Source of the DNA: Bacteroidales bacterium
GTDB lineage: Bacteria; Bacteroidota; Bacteroidia; Bacteroidales; F082
Direction of reading: 5' to 3'
Length of the DNA: 40,228 nt
NCBI GenBank assembly: GCA_024400195.1
Contig: JAKSNC010000015.1
Location: 1 to 40,228, forward strand
The notes under the pieces were generated by a model that did not search any database, was not told the DNA's origin, and worked only from the letters and a program-made list of their open reading frames with translations. Position numbers and translations under genes: made by a program. Below are positions 9,191 to 22,054 of this stretch, piece after piece. Each line of letters starts with the position of its first letter. Position 1 is the first letter of the stretch.

Positions 9191-9964
9191 TTATTTTTTG
9201 GTACAGACTACTTGATTTTTATAATTGAGGTTGATTTTCGAATATCCGTTGAGTTCTTCCCTTCCCGTCATCCTGTCGAAGAAATGCTTCATCTTCAATA
9301 GTTTCTCCGACACGTTGTCGGGATAGCCGAGGATGACGTGCAGGTCGGAATTTCTTACGACGAGTTCGTATTGCCTATTTTTTGCGAGATAGATGTGTCC
9401 GACATTTTGAGACGCATAATCGTCGTTTAATATCGAAGACGCAACGTCGAACGCACCCGGCAGATCGGTCGAAGCATATACGCTGTCGTTGACGTTGTGC
9501 CATTTCTCTCTCGTGACAGGGAAACTGAAATGTCCGCTGCAAATCAATACGTGCGGAATATACCTTCTCCCGACAGGGAAGATATTTCCGTCTTTATCGA
9601 GATAAAGTGATTTGCCTTCATCATTGTAAATCCTCATAATAGGTTGGCATTCAGTCATCTCGATGTTGAGAATCCTTCTGAGTGACAGGTTCGCCCTTAC
9701 ATCGGTCGCCCACGGGTTTTCGGCAAGCGTCTTCCTGACCGAGTCAACGGGAATGTCCGTTACTTGTCTGTTCGACGCGGTGTCGCATATCGCGAGGATG
9801 ATGCCGAGTTCTCTGTCGTAGTTGATGAAGCCGTGCCCGTTGACGATTTTGAAGTCAACGCGGTGAAGTCTGTCTTCGGTATAGTCTTTCCTTGTGAAGA
9901 ACCATAAGGCCCCGATTGCGGCGACTGTCAGCACCCAAACCGATATTTTGAGGAATCTGTTCAT
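9191..9964 (-). CDS. ftsQ: Cell division protein FtsQ
   Basis: Bitopic divisome protein, 257 residues. A short cytoplasmic N-terminus is followed by one membrane helix (about residues 7-24, VWVLTVAAIGALWFF) and an extracytoplasmic part. The POTRA-like region begins after HRVDFKIVNG; the segment DIPVDSVRKTLAENPWATDVRANLSLRRILNIEMTE... is the typical FtsQ beta-alpha-beta pattern. Sequence similarity in this family is weak, and the call rests as much on position between murC and ftsA as on sequence. The start overlaps the murC stop by 4 nt. Confidence 0.9.
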   Translation of the reverse strand: MNRFLKISVWVLTVAAIGALWFFTRKDYTEDRLHRVDFKIVNGHGFINYDRELGIILAICDTASNRQVTDIPVDSVRKTLAENPWATDVRANLSLRRILNIEMTECQPIMRIYNDEGKSLYLDKDGNIFPVGRRYIPHVLICSGHFSFPVTREKWHNVNDSVYASTDLPGAFDVASSILNDDYASQNVGHIYLAKNRQYELVVRNSDLHVILGYPDNVSEKLLKMKHFFDRMTGREELNGYSKINLNYKNQVVCTKK

Positions 9965-11331
9965 TTTCTGTCGTTTTCAGTGCTGGTTTCGTTGAATATC
10001 TTTGTTATTTCAGGTACGAGGCGGTCGATATCGCCGGCGCCCATAGTCAGAAGAAGCGCGGGTTTCAGCGCGGCAATAGTCTCGACGAGTTTTTCCTTTG
10101 CGCAGACCTGCTTCTTCGCGCACCTTATCTTTTCCAATAGTTTTTGCGAAGTGATGCCTTCGATAGGTTTTTCTCTTGCCGGATAAATGTCTAAGAGAAT
10201 GATGTTGTCGGCGAGCGAAAGGACATTGGCGAAGTCGTCCATAAAGTCGCGCGTCCTTGTAAAAAGGTGCGGTTGGAAGATAACCGTCATCTCTCTTTCC
10301 GGGAAGATTTTGCGGGCGGTGTCGAGTGAGGCCTTTATCTCTGATGGATGATGCGCGTAATCGTCTATATAGCAGCGTTTTTCGTTTTGGAACTGAATGT
10401 CGAAACGTCGCGCAACGCCTTCGAATGTTGATAAAGCTTCTTTTATATCTTTGATTTTCAATCCGATGAAGCGGCAGATGATTATGGCTGCCGTTGCGTT
10501 GAGCACGTTATGGTCGCCGAAGAGCCTCATCGCGAAGTCTTCTCTTTCACTATCGGAAAAGGCGACGTTGAAATGTGTCATCCCGTTTTCGATTCTGATG
10601 TCGCACGCGTTTACGTCGGCGTTGTCAAAACCATACGTTACCGTGTTATCGGTGTGCTTCAGCGGAAGTCCTTCGTGCATGACGACGAGCCCTTTCTTGT
10701 CGGTCTTCGCCACGAACTCGTTAAAGCTTTCTATGAGGTTTTCCCTGTTTCCGTAAATGTCGAGATGGTCGGCATCAACTGATGTGACGAGTGAGACGAA
10801 CGGGCTGAGTCTGAGGAACGAGCGGTCGAACTCGTCGGCTTCCGTGACGACGAACTCGTCGTCTTCGCCTCCGATGACGACATTACTGCCAATATTTTTC
10901 GATATGCCTCCGATGAAGGCCGACATGCGCTTACGCGATGATTTGAGTATGTGCGCCACGAGTGCCGTCGTCGATGTCTTGCCGTGTGTGCCGGCTATCG
11001 CGATGGTCTTGTGGAGCATCGAAATCATACCGAGCATTTCGGAGCGTTTCATCAGGCGGAAGCCTTTCTCCCTGACGAGCTTCATCTCTTCGAGGTCGGC
11101 GGGCACGGCAGGTGTATAGACGACCAATTCGGGATGTTCGGGTACGAGTTCCGGCGAGTCGGTGTAGTGAATCTCCATTCCCTCTTTCTCAAGCTTGTGC
11201 GTGAGGGGAGATGCCGTCTTGTCGTAGCCGCAGACAGCGAAGCCTTTGCCGCGGCAGTAACGTGCGAGTGCGCTCATTCCGATGCCGCCGATGCCGATGA
11301 AGTATATTATATGTGTAGCGTCGTTGTTCAT
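9961..11331 (-). CDS. murC: UDP-N-acetylmuramate--L-alanine ligase
   Basis: Adds L-alanine to UDP-MurNAc, the first peptide step of peptidoglycan precursor synthesis. The product is 456 residues, normal length. The N-terminal nucleotide-sugar domain carries FIGIGGIGMSALARYC; the ATPase domain has the P-loop GTHGKTSTTALVAHI; DDYAHHPSEIKASL is the MurC-specific signature at the start of the C-terminal domain. All three Mur-ligase domains are present, in contrast to the murD position of the same cluster. It overlaps murG (upstream) and ftsQ (downstream) by 4 nt each. Confidence 0.97.
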   Translation of the reverse strand: MNNDATHIIYFIGIGGIGMSALARYCRGKGFAVCGYDKTASPLTHKLEKEGMEIHYTDSPELVPEHPELVVYTPAVPADLEEMKLVREKGFRLMKRSEMLGMISMLHKTIAIAGTHGKTSTTALVAHILKSSRKRMSAFIGGISKNIGSNVVIGGEDDEFVVTEADEFDRSFLRLSPFVSLVTSVDADHLDIYGNRENLIESFNEFVAKTDKKGLVVMHEGLPLKHTDNTVTYGFDNADVNACDIRIENGMTHFNVAFSDSEREDFAMRLFGDHNVLNATAAIIICRFIGLKIKDIKEALSTFEGVARRFDIQFQNEKRCYIDDYAHHPSEIKASLDTARKIFPEREMTVIFQPHLFTRTRDFMDDFANVLSLADNIILLDIYPAREKPIEGITSQKLLEKIRCAKKQVCAKEKLVETIAALKPALLLTMGAGDIDRLVPEITKIFNETSTENDRK

Positions 11332-12455
11332 TCGTTGTCGAGGATTTCCATTATCTGTCGTGCCACGTCATCGGCGGCATCGGGTTTGGCGAAGATTCCT
11401 ATGTTGTCGCCCATCTCGGCGCAGCGGTCTTTGTCGTTGATGAGTTCTATCGCCGTTGATAAGAGTTTGTCTTCCGTCTCGAAATTCTTCACCATGACTG
11501 CGGCGTCGGCATCGACGAGGCGTTGGGCGTTCTTCGTCTGATGGTCTTCGGCGGCTGTCGGGAGCGGCACGAAGATGACTGGTTTCTTCACGATGGCCAA
11601 TTCAGATATAGATATGGCTCCGGCACGCGAGATGACGATGTCGGCGGCGGCGTATGCCTTGTCCATGCTGTCGATGAATACCACCGGCTTGATTCTGTCG
11701 CTGAGCCCTGCCGCTTCGACTTCCTTCTTCGCCTGGTCGATATAGAACTTGCCGGTCTGCCAGATGAGCTGTATGTCGTTGTCTTTGAATAAGTCTAATC
11801 TGGCCGAGATGCCTTTGTTTATGCCGAGTGCGCCCTGACTTCCGCCGATAATGAGGATGACGGGTTTCTCGGGGTCGAGACCGAAGAAGCGGACGGACTC
11901 ATTATGCGAAATGTTGTCTGTCTGTATGACGTTGCGCAGCGGGTTGCCCGTCACGATGATTTTTTCCGCAGGAAACCACTTATCCATGTTGTCGTACGCA
12001 ACGCATATCTTTTCGGCTTTTCGGCACATTATCTTGTTGGTCACGCCGGGGTATGAGTTCTGTTCCTGAATGACGATAGGCACGCCTGCACTTGCTGCGG
12101 CACGCATCGTCGGTCCACTCGCGAATCCGCCCACGCCGACAGCCACATCGGGCTTGAACCTGCGTATTATGCGACGGGCCTTTATCATGCTGCTCAACAG
12201 TTTGAACGGAAACGACAGGTTGTCGAGTGAGAACTCGCGTTTGAAACCGCTTATCCACAATCCTTCGATTGGATAGCCCGCCTTCGGGACGCGCTCCATC
12301 TCCATGCGTCCTTTGGCTCCGACGAAAAGAATCTCCACATCGGGCATGCGCCGGCGTAACGCGTCGGCGATGGCGATGGCCGGAAAGATGTGGCCTCCTG
12401 TACCGCCGCCGCTAATCACTATTCTCTTGTGTTGCGAGTTCTGTCTGTCTTTCAT
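11328..12455 (-). CDS. murG: Lipid II synthase (GlcNAc transferase) MurG
   Basis: Transfers GlcNAc to lipid I to make lipid II at the inner membrane face. The product is 375 residues. The glycine loop GGGTGGHIFPAIAIA is at residues 15-29, the second nucleotide loop is IIGGSQGALGINKG, and SRAGAISISELAIVKKP is the family's UDP-GlcNAc site. The ATG at 12455 lies 44 nt inside the end of ftsW, a long overlap. A few residues (KDRQNSQHK) precede the fold, so a later non-ATG start cannot be excluded. Confidence 0.97.
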   Translation of the reverse strand: MKDRQNSQHKRIVISGGGTGGHIFPAIAIADALRRRMPDVEILFVGAKGRMEMERVPKAGYPIEGLWISGFKREFSLDNLSFPFKLLSSMIKARRIIRRFKPDVAVGVGGFASGPTMRAAASAGVPIVIQEQNSYPGVTNKIMCRKAEKICVAYDNMDKWFPAEKIIVTGNPLRNVIQTDNISHNESVRFFGLDPEKPVILIIGGSQGALGINKGISARLDLFKDNDIQLIWQTGKFYIDQAKKEVEAAGLSDRIKPVVFIDSMDKAYAAADIVISRAGAISISELAIVKKPVIFVPLPTAAEDHQTKNAQRLVDADAAVMVKNFETEDKLLSTAIELINDKDRCAEMGDNIGIFAKPDAADDVARQIMEILDNE

Positions 12456-13626
12456 CTTGATTATATGTTTCTTTTGATATACTTATTATAATGCCTATTG
12501 CAATACATGTGAAAAATATCGACGAGCCGCCCTTGCTTATCAGTGGCAGCGGCTGGCCGGTGACTGGAAACAGACCCGTGACGACACCGATGTTGGCGAA
12601 GGCCTGAATCATGATGTTGAGTACGAGTCCTACGGCGAGAAATCCTCCGAAAGAACTGGGCATCTTCTTGATTATGACGAGCGTACGGTAAAATAAGATG
12701 AGGTACAGCAGCATTATGGCTATGCCTACGAAAAATCCGTATTCTTCAAGTATGATGGCGAAGATGAAGTCGTTGTAGGCCTCGGGAAGGACGTTGCGTT
12801 GGACACTCTTTCCGGGTCCTTTCCCCAAGAATCCGCCACGTGCCACGGCTATCTTTCCCTGAATAACCTGATCGTCTTCGGGATTCTCGACTTCCGTGTC
12901 GTTGGTTAAATACCTCTCAATACGGTTCGACCATGTGCCTGTCCTGTTAGTAGAGCTCCTGACTTCGGCTGTCTGTTCCTGCTTTTCCTTCTTTGATGAC
13001 GACATCATCTTGTATCCGATGTATGCTCCGCCTCCGAGCATACTTATTATCAACATTATCAATATGTTCTTCGTCTTGATTTTGGCAACAAAGAGCATCA
13101 TGACAACTACGACGAACAGCATGGCGGCGGTCGAGAAGTTCTCTGGAAACACTAAGCCGACGGTGATGAATACAGGTATCACTATCTTTACGATGAAGGT
13201 GTTGGTCTCGTTTATCGTGTCACGGCAGACCTTCAGTTTTTTTGCTACGAAGCCGACGAGGGCTATCTTGGCGATGTCGCTCGGCTGCAGAGTGAAGCCT
13301 CCTATCACATTTATCTGGCGGCTCGCACCGTTGATGTGTAATCCCGAGGCAGCCGTGTATATTAACAGCGGCGCACACAGGAAGAGCAGCAACGGCAGCA
13401 GGAAGGCGTATCTCTTGTATTTTAGTTGCGCGGCAGCTACACAGGCACAGAAACCCAACCCTATGGTCATACTGTGCTTCAACAGCATAAAGGAACTCGA
13501 TGACGAATTCTTTACAGCCAAACCGCCGATGGCCGAGAATACGGAGACTAACGATATGAGAAGGAGCAGCACCGTTACTACCCATATCGTCTTATCACCT
13601 TGAAATATCCTGCTTAAAAACTTCAT
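12412..13626 (-). CDS. ftsW: SEDS glycosyltransferase FtsW
   Basis: Integral membrane SEDS protein that polymerises septal glycan from lipid II together with the class B PBP. The product is 404 residues with about ten hydrophobic segments. Characteristic segments are GGFTLQPSDIAKIALVGF, an extracytoplasmic loop with GKGPGKSVQRNVLPEAYNDFIFAIILEEYG, and near the C-terminus PVTGQPLPLISKGGSS. The loop before it (about residues 205-245) is long and charged, with NRTGTWSNRIERYL. It starts 14 nt after the murD remnant stop and overlaps murG by 44 nt. Confidence 0.96.
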   Translation of the reverse strand: MKFLSRIFQGDKTIWVVTVLLLLISLVSVFSAIGGLAVKNSSSSSFMLLKHSMTIGLGFCACVAAAQLKYKRYAFLLPLLLFLCAPLLIYTAASGLHINGASRQINVIGGFTLQPSDIAKIALVGFVAKKLKVCRDTINETNTFIVKIVIPVFITVGLVFPENFSTAAMLFVVVVMMLFVAKIKTKNILIMLIISMLGGGAYIGYKMMSSSKKEKQEQTAEVRSSTNRTGTWSNRIERYLTNDTEVENPEDDQVIQGKIAVARGGFLGKGPGKSVQRNVLPEAYNDFIFAIILEEYGFFVGIAIMLLYLILFYRTLVIIKKMPSSFGGFLAVGLVLNIMIQAFANIGVVTGLFPVTGQPLPLISKGGSSIFFTCIAIGIIISISKETYNQDERQTELATQENSD

Positions 13627-13640
13627 CTTCGCAAAGTGCT

Positions 13641-14195
13641 TTATTTCATTCTGTTGACATCGGCCTTGAAGCGTTCGCCGCGTTCTGCCGAGGTCTCATA
13701 TCTGTCATCAATGTCGCACGATGGTGAAAACAGCACCGTGTCGCCGGCGGTAGCCAAGTGTGTCGCCGAGATGACGGCTGCATCAAGGTCGTCGGCATCG
13801 AAGATGCGCCCCTTCAACACGTTCCCGAACGCCTCGTGCAGTGCCGGAGCGTTTTTCCCGACACAGACAAGGGCCTTCACATATTTATTGACCATAGGCA
13901 TCAGTTCGACGTAGTCGCTGTCGTCGGTGCCGTCTCCGGCTATCCACACCACTTTCTTATTAAGATTCTCGAAGGTGAACCACGTCGCCAACGAAGTCGT
14001 CGCACTCGCGTCATCATAATAATCAATCTTGTTGACGGTGTCAACATATTCGTTTCTGTGTCTCAATACTTCACTGCCCGCAAATGCCGCTTTGATGCTG
14101 GCCTTGCGAATCTGACGAAGCTTGTCGTACATCATCAGCTCCATTGTAGCTGCATCAACTCTTCTTCCTTGTCTTGCCAATTGTTCAAATGTCAT
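13641..14195 (-). CDS. MurD C-terminal-domain-like ORF (truncated murD)
   Basis: This 184-residue frame occupies the place of murD between mraY and ftsW. Residues about 27-184 align by eye with the last part of MurD: IRKASIKAAF...RHRNEYV, VVWIAGDGTDDSDYVELMP, GDTVLFSPSC and ERGERFK. The N-terminal substrate domain and the central ATPase domain with its GTNGKTT loop are absent. Only 20 nt separate it from mraY, so they are not hidden upstream. The NDSKATN motif reads DDASATT (residues 61-67), losing the lysine, and the glycine-lysine of GGxDKG is lost. It cannot be a working D-glutamate ligase alone. The frame is open from ATG to stop with a normal composition. It could be a decayed gene or a domain kept for another role. 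Confidence 0.75.
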   Translation of the reverse strand: MTFEQLARQGRRVDAATMELMMYDKLRQIRKASIKAAFAGSEVLRHRNEYVDTVNKIDYYDDASATTSLATWFTFENLNKKVVWIAGDGTDDSDYVELMPMVNKYVKALVCVGKNAPALHEAFGNVLKGRIFDADDLDAAVISATHLATAGDTVLFSPSCDIDDRYETSAERGERFKADVNRMK

Positions 14196-14215: not shown

Positions 14216-15496
14216 TTATCTTATCTTAAGTGTCAAAATCGTCAGTGCGGCGAGCACGATGCTGATTACCCAGAAACGGAATGTTATCTTCGCTTCGTGG
14301 TGCAGGTTCGCACTACCCTTAAATCTGACCGTGCTTCCCGGGTCGTTCTTCTGTATCAACTCGAGAGATGTGCGGAAATGATCGTGAAAAGGTGCGCGTT
14401 TCCAAAGCCTCCTGTGTATTCCCTTTTTCTTTCCCGACTTGTAGTATGATTTCTGAAGAATGACCGACAGACTCTCCATCAGGAAGATTCCGCAAAGCAG
14501 GGGCAGAAGCAGCTCTTTATGGATTATCACCGCCGTCACGCCGATGATTCCGCCGATGGTGAGGCTCCCCGTGTCTCCCATGAACATTTGGGCAGGGAAC
14601 GAATTGAACCAGAGGAATCCGACCAACGCCCCGATGAAGGCGGCGAGAAAAACCACGATCTCCTCCGTTCCTGGAATATACATTATGTCGAAGTAATCAG
14701 CCAGCATGTAGTTCGACGACGCGTAGGCTAATACTATCAATGCCAATCCAACGATGGCAGAGTTGCCTGCCGCCATGCCGTCCATGCCGTCGTTGAGATT
14801 CGTCCCGTTTGAGACCGCCGTGACAACAAACACCGTGAGCAAGACGAAGAAAATCCAGCCTGCGCGATGTTTCCCGGGTTCGCCGAGAAAGTCGAAAAAA
14901 TCGGCATAGTTGAGGTCGTTACCCTTAAAAAACGGTATCGTCGTCCGCGTCGATTTGACATCAGGACTTTTATTGACGACTTCGATATTGTTTTCTATTG
15001 TGACATCGACACTTTCGTTCATCATCACTGCGGGACTATAACGCAACGTGAGGCCGACGATGAGTCCGAGGATGACTTGCCCGACGACTTTCCACCAGCC
15101 GTTAAGACCATTTTTGTTTTTCTTGAAAGTTTTAATATAGTCGTCGGCAAATCCTATCGCGCCGAGTATCAAAGTCGTGACTAATAATAATATAAGGTAT
15201 GTGTTGTGAAGTTTTCCGATGAGGAGGCACGAGATAAGAAGTGCCGTTATGATGACTATTCCGCCCATTGTCGGCACTCCGACTTTGTGTGTGTTGAACG
15301 GGTCGGTTGCGGCATCGCGCTGCATCTCCGATATGTTACGGCGTTTCAGTGTGTCGATGAAACGATTCCCGAATAACACGGCCACGATGAGCGAGACGAC
15401 GCCTGCTATAATGGCCCTCACGGATGTGTATTCGAAGACGCCTCCGCCGGGTATCGTGAAATGTTCGCGCAAATATTCAAAAAGATAATATAACAT
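14216..15496 (-). CDS. mraY: Phospho-MurNAc-pentapeptide transferase MraY
   Basis: Makes lipid I by moving phospho-MurNAc-pentapeptide to undecaprenyl phosphate. The product is 426 residues, polytopic. Visible signatures are TMGGIVIITALL, the aspartate pair of GFADDYIKTFKKN, VSNGTNLNDGMDGMAAG, and the late NPGSTVRFKGSANLHHEAK. An insertion of roughly 45 residues (about 155-200, VDVTIENNIEVVNKS...) lengthens one loop, as I recall for Bacteroidota MraY. It lies between murE (20 nt upstream) and the murD remnant (20 nt downstream). Confidence 0.97.
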   Translation of the reverse strand: MLYYLFEYLREHFTIPGGGVFEYTSVRAIIAGVVSLIVAVLFGNRFIDTLKRRNISEMQRDAATDPFNTHKVGVPTMGGIVIITALLISCLLIGKLHNTYLILLLVTTLILGAIGFADDYIKTFKKNKNGLNGWWKVVGQVILGLIVGLTLRYSPAVMMNESVDVTIENNIEVVNKSPDVKSTRTTIPFFKGNDLNYADFFDFLGEPGKHRAGWIFFVLLTVFVVTAVSNGTNLNDGMDGMAAGNSAIVGLALIVLAYASSNYMLADYFDIMYIPGTEEIVVFLAAFIGALVGFLWFNSFPAQMFMGDTGSLTIGGIIGVTAVIIHKELLLPLLCGIFLMESLSVILQKSYYKSGKKKGIHRRLWKRAPFHDHFRTSLELIQKNDPGSTVRFKGSANLHHEAKITFRFWVISIVLAALTILTLKIR

Positions 15497-15516: not shown

Positions 15517-16962
15517 TTATGATTTCTGTATCTCTTCAGTATCATCAAAATGATGTTTCACGCCTTTAACATCCTGATAAGTCTCGTGTCCCTTGCCTGC
15601 GATGAGTATTATGTCGCCCTTCTTCGCAAGCATTGCTGCCGCGCGTAGTGCTTCACGTCTGTCGGTTATGCAGAGCGTTTTTCTTGCATGTTCGGCAGGC
15701 ACGCCCTCGCGTATCTGTCTTATAATCTCTTCCGGCTCCTCGAAACGTGGGTTGTCGCTCGTGATGATTATGCGGTCGGAACGTTCAGCCGCCGTCTGCC
15801 CCATTTCGGGCCTCTTCGTCGTATCTCGGTTTCCTCCGGCTCCGAAAACGGTTATAAGTGTCTCATTATGAGTGCGAATGTCGTTTATTGTGTCTAAGAC
15901 GTTCTTCAGTGCGTCGGGTGTGTGGGCGTAATCCACGATGGCAACCGCCTGTGACGCGAGGCGTATCACCTGAAATCTACCGGCTGCCGGTTCGAGTTTG
16001 CTTATTCCGCAGAGAAGCTCCGACTCGTCCATGCCGAGTTCCGCCGCCGCACCGTATATTGCCAAAAGATTGCTCGCGTTGAATCTTCCTACAAGACGGA
16101 CAAAGACTTCTTTATTATTGATTTTCAATTGCATTCCATCGAAACAACTCTCCATCACGAGACCTTTGTAGTCGGTTTCGGTGAGAAGTGAATACGAACA
16201 TCTCTTTGCCTTGGTGTTCTGAAGCATCACGAGACCGTTTTTGTCGTCGAGGTTTGTCAGTGCGAAGGCTGTTGACGGGAGGTTGTCGAAAAACTTCTTT
16301 TTTGCGTCGCGATAAGCTTTGACCGTCTTGTGATAATCTAAATGGTCGTGTGTCAGATTAGTGAAGATGCCTCCTACAAAGTCCAATCCGGCGATTCTGT
16401 TCTGATCAACGGCGTGCGAGCTTACCTCCATAAACACGTATTTGCAGCCGGCTTCGACCATCTGTGCGAGAAGGCTGTTCAGCTCGATCTGGTCGCCTGT
16501 CGTGTGCGTTGACGGTATGACCTTGCCGTCGATGATGTTCTCTATCGTTGAAAGGAGTCCGCAGGCATATCCCGCGTCGCTGAATAGGCGGTAGAGCAGG
16601 GTGGCGATCGTCGTCTTGCCGTTGGTGCCGGTCACTCCGACGAGGCTGAGTTGTGACGACGGATTTCCGTAGAACTCCGATGCCGCCAAGCCGAGTGCGA
16701 TGGAACTGTCGGCCACGGCGATATAAACCACACCGGCGGTCTTTGATGCAGGCATCGTCTCGCATACTATAGCGACGGCTCCATTTTCGACGGCCTTGTC
16801 TATGTATTCGTGTCCGTCGGTCTGAGTCCCCTTTACCGCGAAAAACACGCATCCGTCGCAGACTTTGCGCGAGTCGAATGCTATTGACCTTATCTCCCTG
16901 TCGAAGTCGCCTTCAACGGCTTCCACGCGGCAGTTACGCATTATGCTTCTCAGTGTCGTCAT
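15517..16962 (-). CDS. murE: UDP-MurNAc-tripeptide synthetase (diaminopimelate-type)
   Basis: Adds the third amino acid to the peptidoglycan precursor. The product is 481 residues with all three Mur-ligase domains. The P-loop GTNGKTT is at residues 112-118. The C-terminal DNPRFEEP at residues 403-410 carries the DNPR motif that in this family indicates meso-diaminopimelate, not lysine, as substrate. [10 protein letters not shown] is the conserved carbamate/ADP region. It begins 4 nt after the ftsI stop. Confidence 0.96.
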
Positions 16963-21067: not shown

Positions 21068-22054
21068 ATGTTCCTCAAGGAAAAGAAATTCTACATTCAT
21101 CTCGCTATTGCACTCGCAGTGGTCTTCGTGATATTGTTCGTGTCGTACAAAATGCTGAGCGGCTGCACGAGGCACGGTGAGGAAATAAAGATGCCGGACT
21201 TCGTCGGACATGATGAAGCATGGATGATTGAAAACTATTCATCCGACTTCGATTTCATACTTGTTGACAGCCTATATGTCAAGGATATGCCGGTCGGATC
21301 CGTGTATCAGCAGAACCCACGCGCCAACTCTAACGTCAAACGCGGCAGAAACGTTTATTACATCGTCGTGTCGAAATCTCCCGAAATGGTGCAGATGCCT
21401 AATCTGCGCAATCTGTCGCTGCGGCAGGCCTTGTCGTCGCTCAACAGCCTCGGCCTGAACGTCGGCAACCTGAATTTTGTCGAACATATAGCGAGAAACG
21501 CCGTTGTACAGCAATATGTCGATGAAACTCCTGTAGAACCGGGCACGATACTCCACAAAGGGACTTCCGTCACTCTCGATGTCGGACTTGGCAGCGGCAA
21601 CAAAAAAACATACGTGCCGAACCTCATCGGAAAGACCATAAATGAATTAAAACCGGCTCTCCACAACGCCTCGCTCAATATCGGCGAAACAGTCTTCATG
21701 GATACCGCCGCCATCGAGACATACCGTGTGTGGAAGATGGAACCTTCATATTCTTCAATAACTATGGTCGAACTCGGAACGCCGGTCAATGTGTGGCTGC
21801 GCTCCGAAAATAATTTTGACTTTATGAACTTCCTCGCCCTCACAAGGGTGAAGGACTCCATCATCGACGCAAACAAGCAGAATCTGTCGGATATAGAACT
21901 TTACTTTATGATAGACAGCATGGACTGCCTCATCGAAGGAAGAGAGTTCTCCCGCAATATCGAAGATACGGCGGATTCAATAGATAAACACCTCGAACTG
22001 AATTACGATGACGTTGAAATTGATGACGAATATTATTATGATGAAGAAAATTAG
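21068..22054 (+). CDS. Membrane-anchored PASTA-domain protein
   Basis: A 328-residue protein with an N-terminal membrane helix (about 9-30, HLAIALAVVFVILFVSY) and an extracytoplasmic part of about three PASTA repeats: MPDFVGHDEAWMIE..., MPNLRNLSLRQALSSLNSLGL..., VPNLIGKTINELKPAL.... The C-terminal ~60 residues are acidic (DDVEIDDEYYYDEEN). PASTA domains bind peptidoglycan fragments or beta-lactams in kinases and PBPs, but no kinase or transpeptidase domain is attached here. It is divergent from the dcw operon. Its last codons overlap the following secreted-protein gene by 14 nt, so the two are probably co-translated. Confidence 0.9.
   Translation: MFLKEKKFYIHLAIALAVVFVILFVSYKMLSGCTRHGEEIKMPDFVGHDEAWMIENYSSDFDFILVDSLYVKDMPVGSVYQQNPRANSNVKRGRNVYYIVVSKSPEMVQMPNLRNLSLRQALSSLNSLGLNVGNLNFVEHIARNAVVQQYVDETPVEPGTILHKGTSVTLDVGLGSGNKKTYVPNLIGKTINELKPALHNASLNIGETVFMDTAAIETYRVWKMEPSYSSITMVELGTPVNVWLRSENNFDFMNFLALTRVKDSIIDANKQNLSDIELYFMIDSMDCLIEGREFSRNIEDTADSIDKHLELNYDDVEIDDEYYYDEEN

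Follow-up and report, generated by a model that had tools for sequence, protein, structure and literature searches.

The murD position in the dcw cluster of a Bacteroidales MAG, which represents a gut bacterium, is occupied by an intact reading frame of 184 codons that, judged by its sequence, cannot be a complete ligase and contains little besides the C-terminal domain of MurD. The frame, here called MurD-C, lies in a stretch of 40,228 nucleotides that was analyzed as a whole (the window). From homology and gene pairing, MurD appears to have been replaced in this genome by a two-step MurL/MurD2 detour located elsewhere, and sequence trees indicate that related bacteria truncated the dcw murD several times independently. 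A function different from amino acid ligation is probable for MurD-C. The recurrence in the order and the tie to MurL are additional to a preliminary description of this DNA, whose claims are taken up below.

The reading frame at the murD position

MurD-C runs without interruption from ATG to TAA, starts 20 nt past the mraY stop, and ends 14 nt ahead of the ftsW ATG (Table 1). Its sole Pfam match was Mur_ligase_C (PF02875), at 41.6 bits against a gathering threshold of 28.4, with residues 46 to 160 aligned to the entire profile (positions 1 to 127 of 127). The murD equivalog model TIGR01087 matched over positions 287 to 440 of 441 only, and its score of 99 bits, against a cut-off of 212, places the frame outside the equivalog. 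Furthermore, a profile built from 29 frames of this kind, called stubs below, gave 11 matches in the PDB at an E value of ≤0.001, all of them to MurD chains.

These results bear out the preliminary description in placing a C-terminal-domain ORF at the murD position and in judging it not to be a functional ligase: the score falls short, the ATPase domain is gone, and the lysine of the D-Glu site is gone. Its statement that only the third domain was left holds for the C-domain match and has to be widened at the N-terminal end, as alignment with full-length relatives showed that ~40 residues from the end of the central domain are also kept. The frame begins at a methionine that is internal in full-length MurD (MTFEQLARQGRR here, MTLEQLALQGKHN in full-length relatives), and the HN of GKHN is lost in this N-terminal piece. 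The motifs HR, ELMP, GDTVLFSP, and ERGERF, earlier listed together with the intact frame, were all present. The reported change of NDSK to DDAS and the loss of the glycine and lysine of GGxDK are real in the window, which has GDGTDD at the position of E. coli Lys348 (the role of this residue is taken from the accessible text of PMC8788868). Neither loss is genus-wide, since DDSK and GGNDKG are retained in some other members. In short comparison with the MurD ligase, MurD-C shares a homologous C-domain and a place in dcw between mraY and ftsW (mraY-[murD]-ftsW) but is without the N-terminal domain, the remainder of the ATPase domain, and the D-Glu lysine.

The surrounding dcw cluster is ordered, and its neighbors were named by Pfam as MraZ, MraW, FtsL-like, PBP, MurE, MraY, FtsW, MurG, MurC, FtsA, and FtsZ. 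At the ftsQ position, an ORF of 257 aa (9191-9964, minus strand) had no Pfam or NCBIfam match. Adjoining the start of the cluster in divergent orientation is a gene (21068-22054, plus strand) whose 328-aa product has two PASTA stretches.

Table 1. Features at and around the murD position of the window
Feature	Position	Strand	Basis
MurD-C, stand-alone, probably noncatalytic MurD C-domain, 184 aa	13641..14195	-	Profile matches, genus spread, dN/dS
N-terminal piece, end of MurD central domain, residues 1-45	14061..14195	-	Alignment with full-length relatives
HR motif, residues 46-47, kept	14055..14060	-	Sequence and alignment
DDAS replacing NDSK, residues 61-64; D62 invariant in aligned stubs	14004..14015	-	Alignment
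GDGTDD replacing GGxDKG, residues 87-92; lysine at E. coli Lys348 position lost	13920..13937	-	Alignment
FSP, residues 156-158, kept	13722..13730	-	Sequence and alignment
mraY, upstream of MurD-C	14216..15496	-	Pfam
ftsW, downstream of MurD-C	12412..13626	-	Pfam
murE, intact, 606 bits to its NCBIfam equivalog	15517..16962	-	NCBIfam
murG	11328..12455	-	Pfam

MurL, MurD2, and the distribution of stubs

The MAG that contains the window comprises 1.84 Mb in 54 contigs and is 89.7% complete. Elsewhere in it, a full-length MurD-like ligase of 438 aa (contig C3:1478-2794, 312 bits to TIGR01087) overlaps the 3′ end of a gene for a 493-aa MurL homologue, so that the arrangement taken as the mark of the MurL/MurD2 pathway, a MurL homologue with an adjoining MurD-like ligase, is found in this genome. 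The MurL homologue scored 253 bits to NF041275, under the curated cut-off of 700 for a model that was built for Xanthomonadales; because MurL scores were far below this cut-off, assignment of the pathway draws on homology, on the pairing of the two genes, and on the absence of MurI. The C3 ligase has the MurD2-type residues arginine in GGFDRD (Lys348 position) and isoleucine in NDSIST (Lys319 position), and both residues were found at the Glu site in all 16 MurD2 loci (that of the window's genome and 15 more). According to the accessible text of PMC8788868, arginine at the Lys348 position is a feature of MurD2, and E. coli MurD mutated at Lys319 can use L-Glu. The second MurD copy is, by its gene pairing and residues, a MurD2-like ligase of a murL-murD2 pair and not the relocated dcw murD that the preliminary description had considered; the expectation that another enzyme must supply the D-Glu step agrees with the pair on C3. 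The MurD2-like ligase would add L-Glu, which MurL would turn into D-Glu.

The adjoining murL and murD2 homologues, the absence of MurI, and the MurD2-type Glu-site residues are shared with the MurD2/MurL system of Xanthomonas oryzae, as far as the latter is described in the accessible portions of PMC8788868 and PMC5808125. Those portions name Gamma- and Alphaproteobacteria and actinobacteria as carriers of the Xanthomonas-type route, orthologues of low similarity in cyanobacteria, an amoeba, and a fungus are mentioned in one of the two papers, and the string "bacteroid" does not occur in the accessible text of either. The kept MurD C-domain is a feature of the present genomes that is absent from both accounts, as given in their open-access text. 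Natural MurL-MurD2 fusions, in one open frame of ~880 to 1000 aa, were seen in several genomes (G023:C4 [L048], G027:C22 [L049], G018:C17, G020:C20, G030:C23, G060:C98, G109:C218, G238:C12, G262:C329, and others), and both halves were aligned in L048 and L049.

In the window's genus, 57 of 60 genomes had a stub as their top match, including all 27 near-complete ones; the three genomes without a stub are only 62 to 72% complete. Named assemblies, which come from many studies, were scanned as well and had stubs at 55 of 57 loci, the other two being the MurD of an actinomycete MAG and that of a Gallionella. An assembly deletion, raised earlier as what might explain the short frame, is ruled out by this recurrence across many assemblies. 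MurI was absent from all 60 genus genomes at an E value of ≤0.001 (a control matched in 10 of 14 genomes), and MurL matched in 57 of 60, with no real match in G022 (18 bits) and a fragment in G058. Two near-complete genomes, G022 (97%) and G146 (95%, from the family search), have a stub, no real MurL match, and no second MurD match, and they count against the explanation favored below.

Among 149 genomes of the family, MurL matched in 143 at an E value of ≤0.001, in 15 of 16 genera, with two matches (G022 and G065) under 25 bits; MurI was over its cut-off in none, with weak matches in 30. In the other genera, the open frame of the dcw-type MurD spans about 450 aa; the exception is G063 of genus g5, whose stub keeps NDSKATS and SPACASFD but has GGVDNGND. 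Shorter dcw-type MurD frames were found in G084, where the frame lies at a contig start, and in G113, and no strong dcw-type MurD match was obtained in this search for G074, G118, G125, G127, and G129.

In 157 genomes of the order, MurL was found in 55 (in G212 at only 23 bits) and MurI over its cut-off in 97; none had both and 5 had neither. No genome reached the curated 700-bit cut-off for MurL. The MurL/MurD2 route, reviewed for other phyla in the accessible text of PMC8788868 and PMC5808125, is thereby extended to about a third of the sampled Bacteroidales genomes, in which MurI and MurL are mutually exclusive. The dcw-type MurD of the 55 MurL genomes was a stub in 23, full length in 25, cut by contig ends in 2 (G212 and G262), and without a strong match in 5, whereas the 97 MurI genomes had no stubs, 94 full-length genes, 1 gene cut by a contig end (G306), and 2 cases without a strong match; the five genomes with neither had four full-length genes and one case without. 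Where the dcw MurD could be resolved, stubs were thus present in 23 of 48 MurL genomes and in 0 of 94 MurI genomes (Fisher p = 1.7e-13, uncorrected for kinship), and the 23 span 16 family codes.

All fetched stub loci lay between mraY and ftsW, with only the mraY end present on the contig of G168. The distance from the mraY stop to the MurD stop was 176 to 228 codons in 78 loci and 444 to 514 codons in 71, with none intermediate (mraY was in view in 149 of 154 loci, and 56 of the short distances came from the window's genus). Stub length was 176 to 190 aa in 79 of 79 by the first-ATG rule, and the initial methionine fell in the same alignment column in 86% of 22 stubs outside the genus and 96% of 57. 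Two results of this survey count against the favored explanation. Five of the 55 MurL genomes (G180, G230, G236, G283, and G309) had no strong dcw-type MurD or stub, which may be lost or lie in assembly gaps. In addition, the 25 of 48 MurL genomes that keep a full-length dcw MurD are not explained by MurD being dispensable; in full-length dcw MurD of MurL genomes, where MurI is absent, the catalytic motifs were kept (P-loop, 42/42; NDSKAT, 42/42; GGxDKGND, 41/42).

Weak matches to the MurI model, below its cut-off, occurred in some MurL genomes (e.g., G186, G200, G293, and G313), most in frames of ~230 to 250 aa. The five genomes with neither MurI over cut-off nor MurL (G246, G273, G281, G234, and G176) may have another D-Glu route or assembly gaps. 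D-Amino-acid transaminase might be another source of D-Glu, above all for MurL genomes that have a full-length MurD; among the 157 genomes, one (G231, which has MurI) exceeded the TIGR01121 cut-off, alongside many weak class-IV aminotransferase matches. MurD was also found in open frames of 835 to 922 aa in L268 (G427) and similarly in G392, G429, G195, and G241; the frame in L268 (1381-3982, coding strand) also spans the mraY position and is possibly a MraY-MurD fusion.

Recurrence, constraint, and tandem copies

In a tree of MraY and FtsW from 107 loci, the stub state needed 11 changes, at least 6 of them forced by starred branches, and a mixture model with 77 rows gave the same change counts. 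The changes were read as separate truncations because lost domains are not easily regained. A single stub clade was rejected (p-AU = 0.0002) with 21 stubs and 30 full-length MurL rows, genus g1 and the MurI rows being left out; the window's genus lies on a long branch near MurI taxa in the tree, unlike its family code, and was therefore omitted from this test. Two sister pairs, G300/G194 and G308/G209, each combine one full-length gene and one stub.

Across 952 pairs of genus loci with a MraY dS of 0.1 to 1.5, which are not independent of one another, the median dN/dS was 0.22 for the stub (computable in 909 pairs), 0.19 for FtsW, and 0.08 for MraY. The window's own copy is outside this set, being too far from the rest, with synonymous sites near saturation. 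At a MraY identity of 66 to 74%, stubs had a mean identity of 46% versus 61% for full-length C-domains and hence evolve faster, as expected with catalytic constraints gone; constraint on the stubs is thus partly relaxed, which counts against the explanation favored below. In 67 full-length sequences, three residues were invariant (H and N in GKHN, K in GGxDK); they were present in at most 31%, 36%, and 31%, respectively, of 22 stubs outside the genus. Positions W72, W84, I85, D62, V106, and G113 were kept at 98 to 100% in both stub sets. The preliminary description had offered either a decaying relic or a retained noncatalytic domain and had named a full murD elsewhere plus purifying selection as support for the latter; both were found, and the retained domain appears to be right.

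Stand-alone C-domain copies also occur in other orders, where they adjoin an intact murD. Among 49 resolved genomes of the class, the arrangement mraY-murD-[C-domain ORF]-ftsW was found in 31 and not in 16, a share that is biased upward and is no estimate, since 20 of the fetched class loci were chosen for a listed second match. These tandem copies resemble one another more than their neighbors (few tree changes, with long-branch warnings), and GGxDK is mostly absent there too, with GG.DK kept in 5 of 31. In one family (G329, G370, G404, and G432), the tandem copy scored 56 to 58% to the MurD of other genomes versus 41 to 45% to its own neighbor, and the adjoining full-length MurD was divergent, with a mean of 51 to 52% to others, compared with a typical 61%; these values would fit what is perhaps another replaced ligase with the old C-domain kept. 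Stand-alone MurD C-domain ORFs in frames of 184 to 225 aa were further seen away from dcw in L287, L289, L290, and L291 (G361, G427, G321, and G365), with no mraY or ftsW match within the fetched stretch.

Role and origin of MurD-C

The explanation that we favor, and consider rather probable, is that MurD-C is a stand-alone MurD C-domain protein that has lost catalysis and kept a second, nonligase role, most likely docking in a Mur/MraY/FtsW/MurG assembly. A deletion that ends just ahead of the conserved internal methionine would have removed the first ~270 codons of the resident dcw murD, and the remaining ~182 codons would still be translated and selected. Catalysis would have been lost with the ATPase domain and the D-Glu lysine, and MurD-C would dock the cytoplasmic Mur enzymes (MurD2, MurE, and MurG) at the MraY/FtsW end of the pathway. 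We infer a docking or regulatory role; a scaffold in the Mur/divisome complex, as the preliminary description had suggested, may be one form of it. In the MurG scaffold model for Mur ligases, as presented in the accessible part of PMC6420597, a stand-alone domain is not part of the description and the binding domain of MurD is not specified. If the docking explanation is true, two functions of an essential textbook enzyme would be separated, with the ligase chemistry outsourced and a C-domain that must stay; the recurrent losses would form a natural deletion series showing which part of MurD matters beyond catalysis, and the long-discussed physical Mur-ligase complex would become testable.

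MurD-C might instead be a regulatory or chaperone-like subunit of one ligase (MurD2 or MurE), half-site docked on its central domain, and not a general scaffold. Among the best-kept residues of the stubs, where the Glu lysine goes, are HR and the (N/D)DS aspartate, which face ATP in MurD, and the confinement of all stubs in the order sample to MurL genomes is in keeping with such a partner. The tandem MurD-C of other orders, which adjoins an intact murD, may speak against a single-ligase subunit, and we regard this alternative as unlikely. The same tandem arrangement raises the question of origin, as a stub could be the survivor of a murD-murD-C pair whose full-length gene was deleted. That arrangement is frequent in the class sample, with its upward bias, but full-length MurD from MurL genomes came closer than every tandem copy for 29 of 30 stubs (G214 is the exception, at 42 versus 43%), and G209 and G063 are closest to the full-length MurD of their own families (G308, 65% versus 44%; G067, 70% versus 52%). 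A tandem-paralogue origin, which we consider improbable, is disfavored by this similarity, the tree itself carrying long-branch warnings.

A mere translated spacer, coupling ftsW translation to mraY, would accord with the many stubs that stop 0 to 30 nt from an ftsW start candidate. Coupling needs no particular protein, however, and a shorter peptide would do, whereas residues are conserved here; moreover, some loci have gaps of around 80 nt or longer (81 in G279, 87 in G298, and 79 in G232), and the spacer is very improbable. Decay after MurD became dispensable would account for the lost catalytic residues and for divergence faster than that of full-length C-domains, but the frame is open in every near-complete genus genome, dN/dS is low, length is constant, and the same part of MurD has been retained recurrently, so that the decaying relic of the preliminary description is even harder to credit. 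As for an assembly or binning artefact, the genome is a fragmented MAG, and yet the recurrence of the same structure in the genus genomes and named assemblies leaves this a negligible prospect.

An origin in a two-product gene is put forward tentatively, and we hold it to be possible rather than probable. Bacteroidales murD would encode two proteins, the ligase and a free MurD-C translated from a start inside the gene, and MurD-C would have a separate and perhaps essential part in making the wall or in division. Once the ligase had become dispensable through MurL/MurD2, the 5′ part of murD would have been lost and the nested product left, several times. Two results argue against it: the upstream signal is absent in MurI genes (z = 0.8), and in a class control, the signal is moderate and does not differ between genomes that have tandem MurD-C and genomes that lack it (p = 0.51). 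According to the accessible text of PMC6847099, upstream adenines (-3, -6, -12, and -13) and low structure favor initiation in a member of this phylum. Full-length murD has start-like signals at the methionine where stubs begin, with an excess of A in codons +1 to +7 beyond that due to amino acids and codon use; in shuffles uncorrected for kinship, z was 5.8 in 23 MurI genes and 9.0 and 9.7 in 18 and 22 MurL genes, and native starts gave 6.1, 5.5, and 2.8. No comparable signal was seen at five other MurD motifs and a MurE site. Predicted mRNA folding was weak around the internal methionine, as at native starts, and the signal was stronger in MurL than in MurI genes in a thinned set (p = 0.003 downstream and p = 0.0009 upstream).
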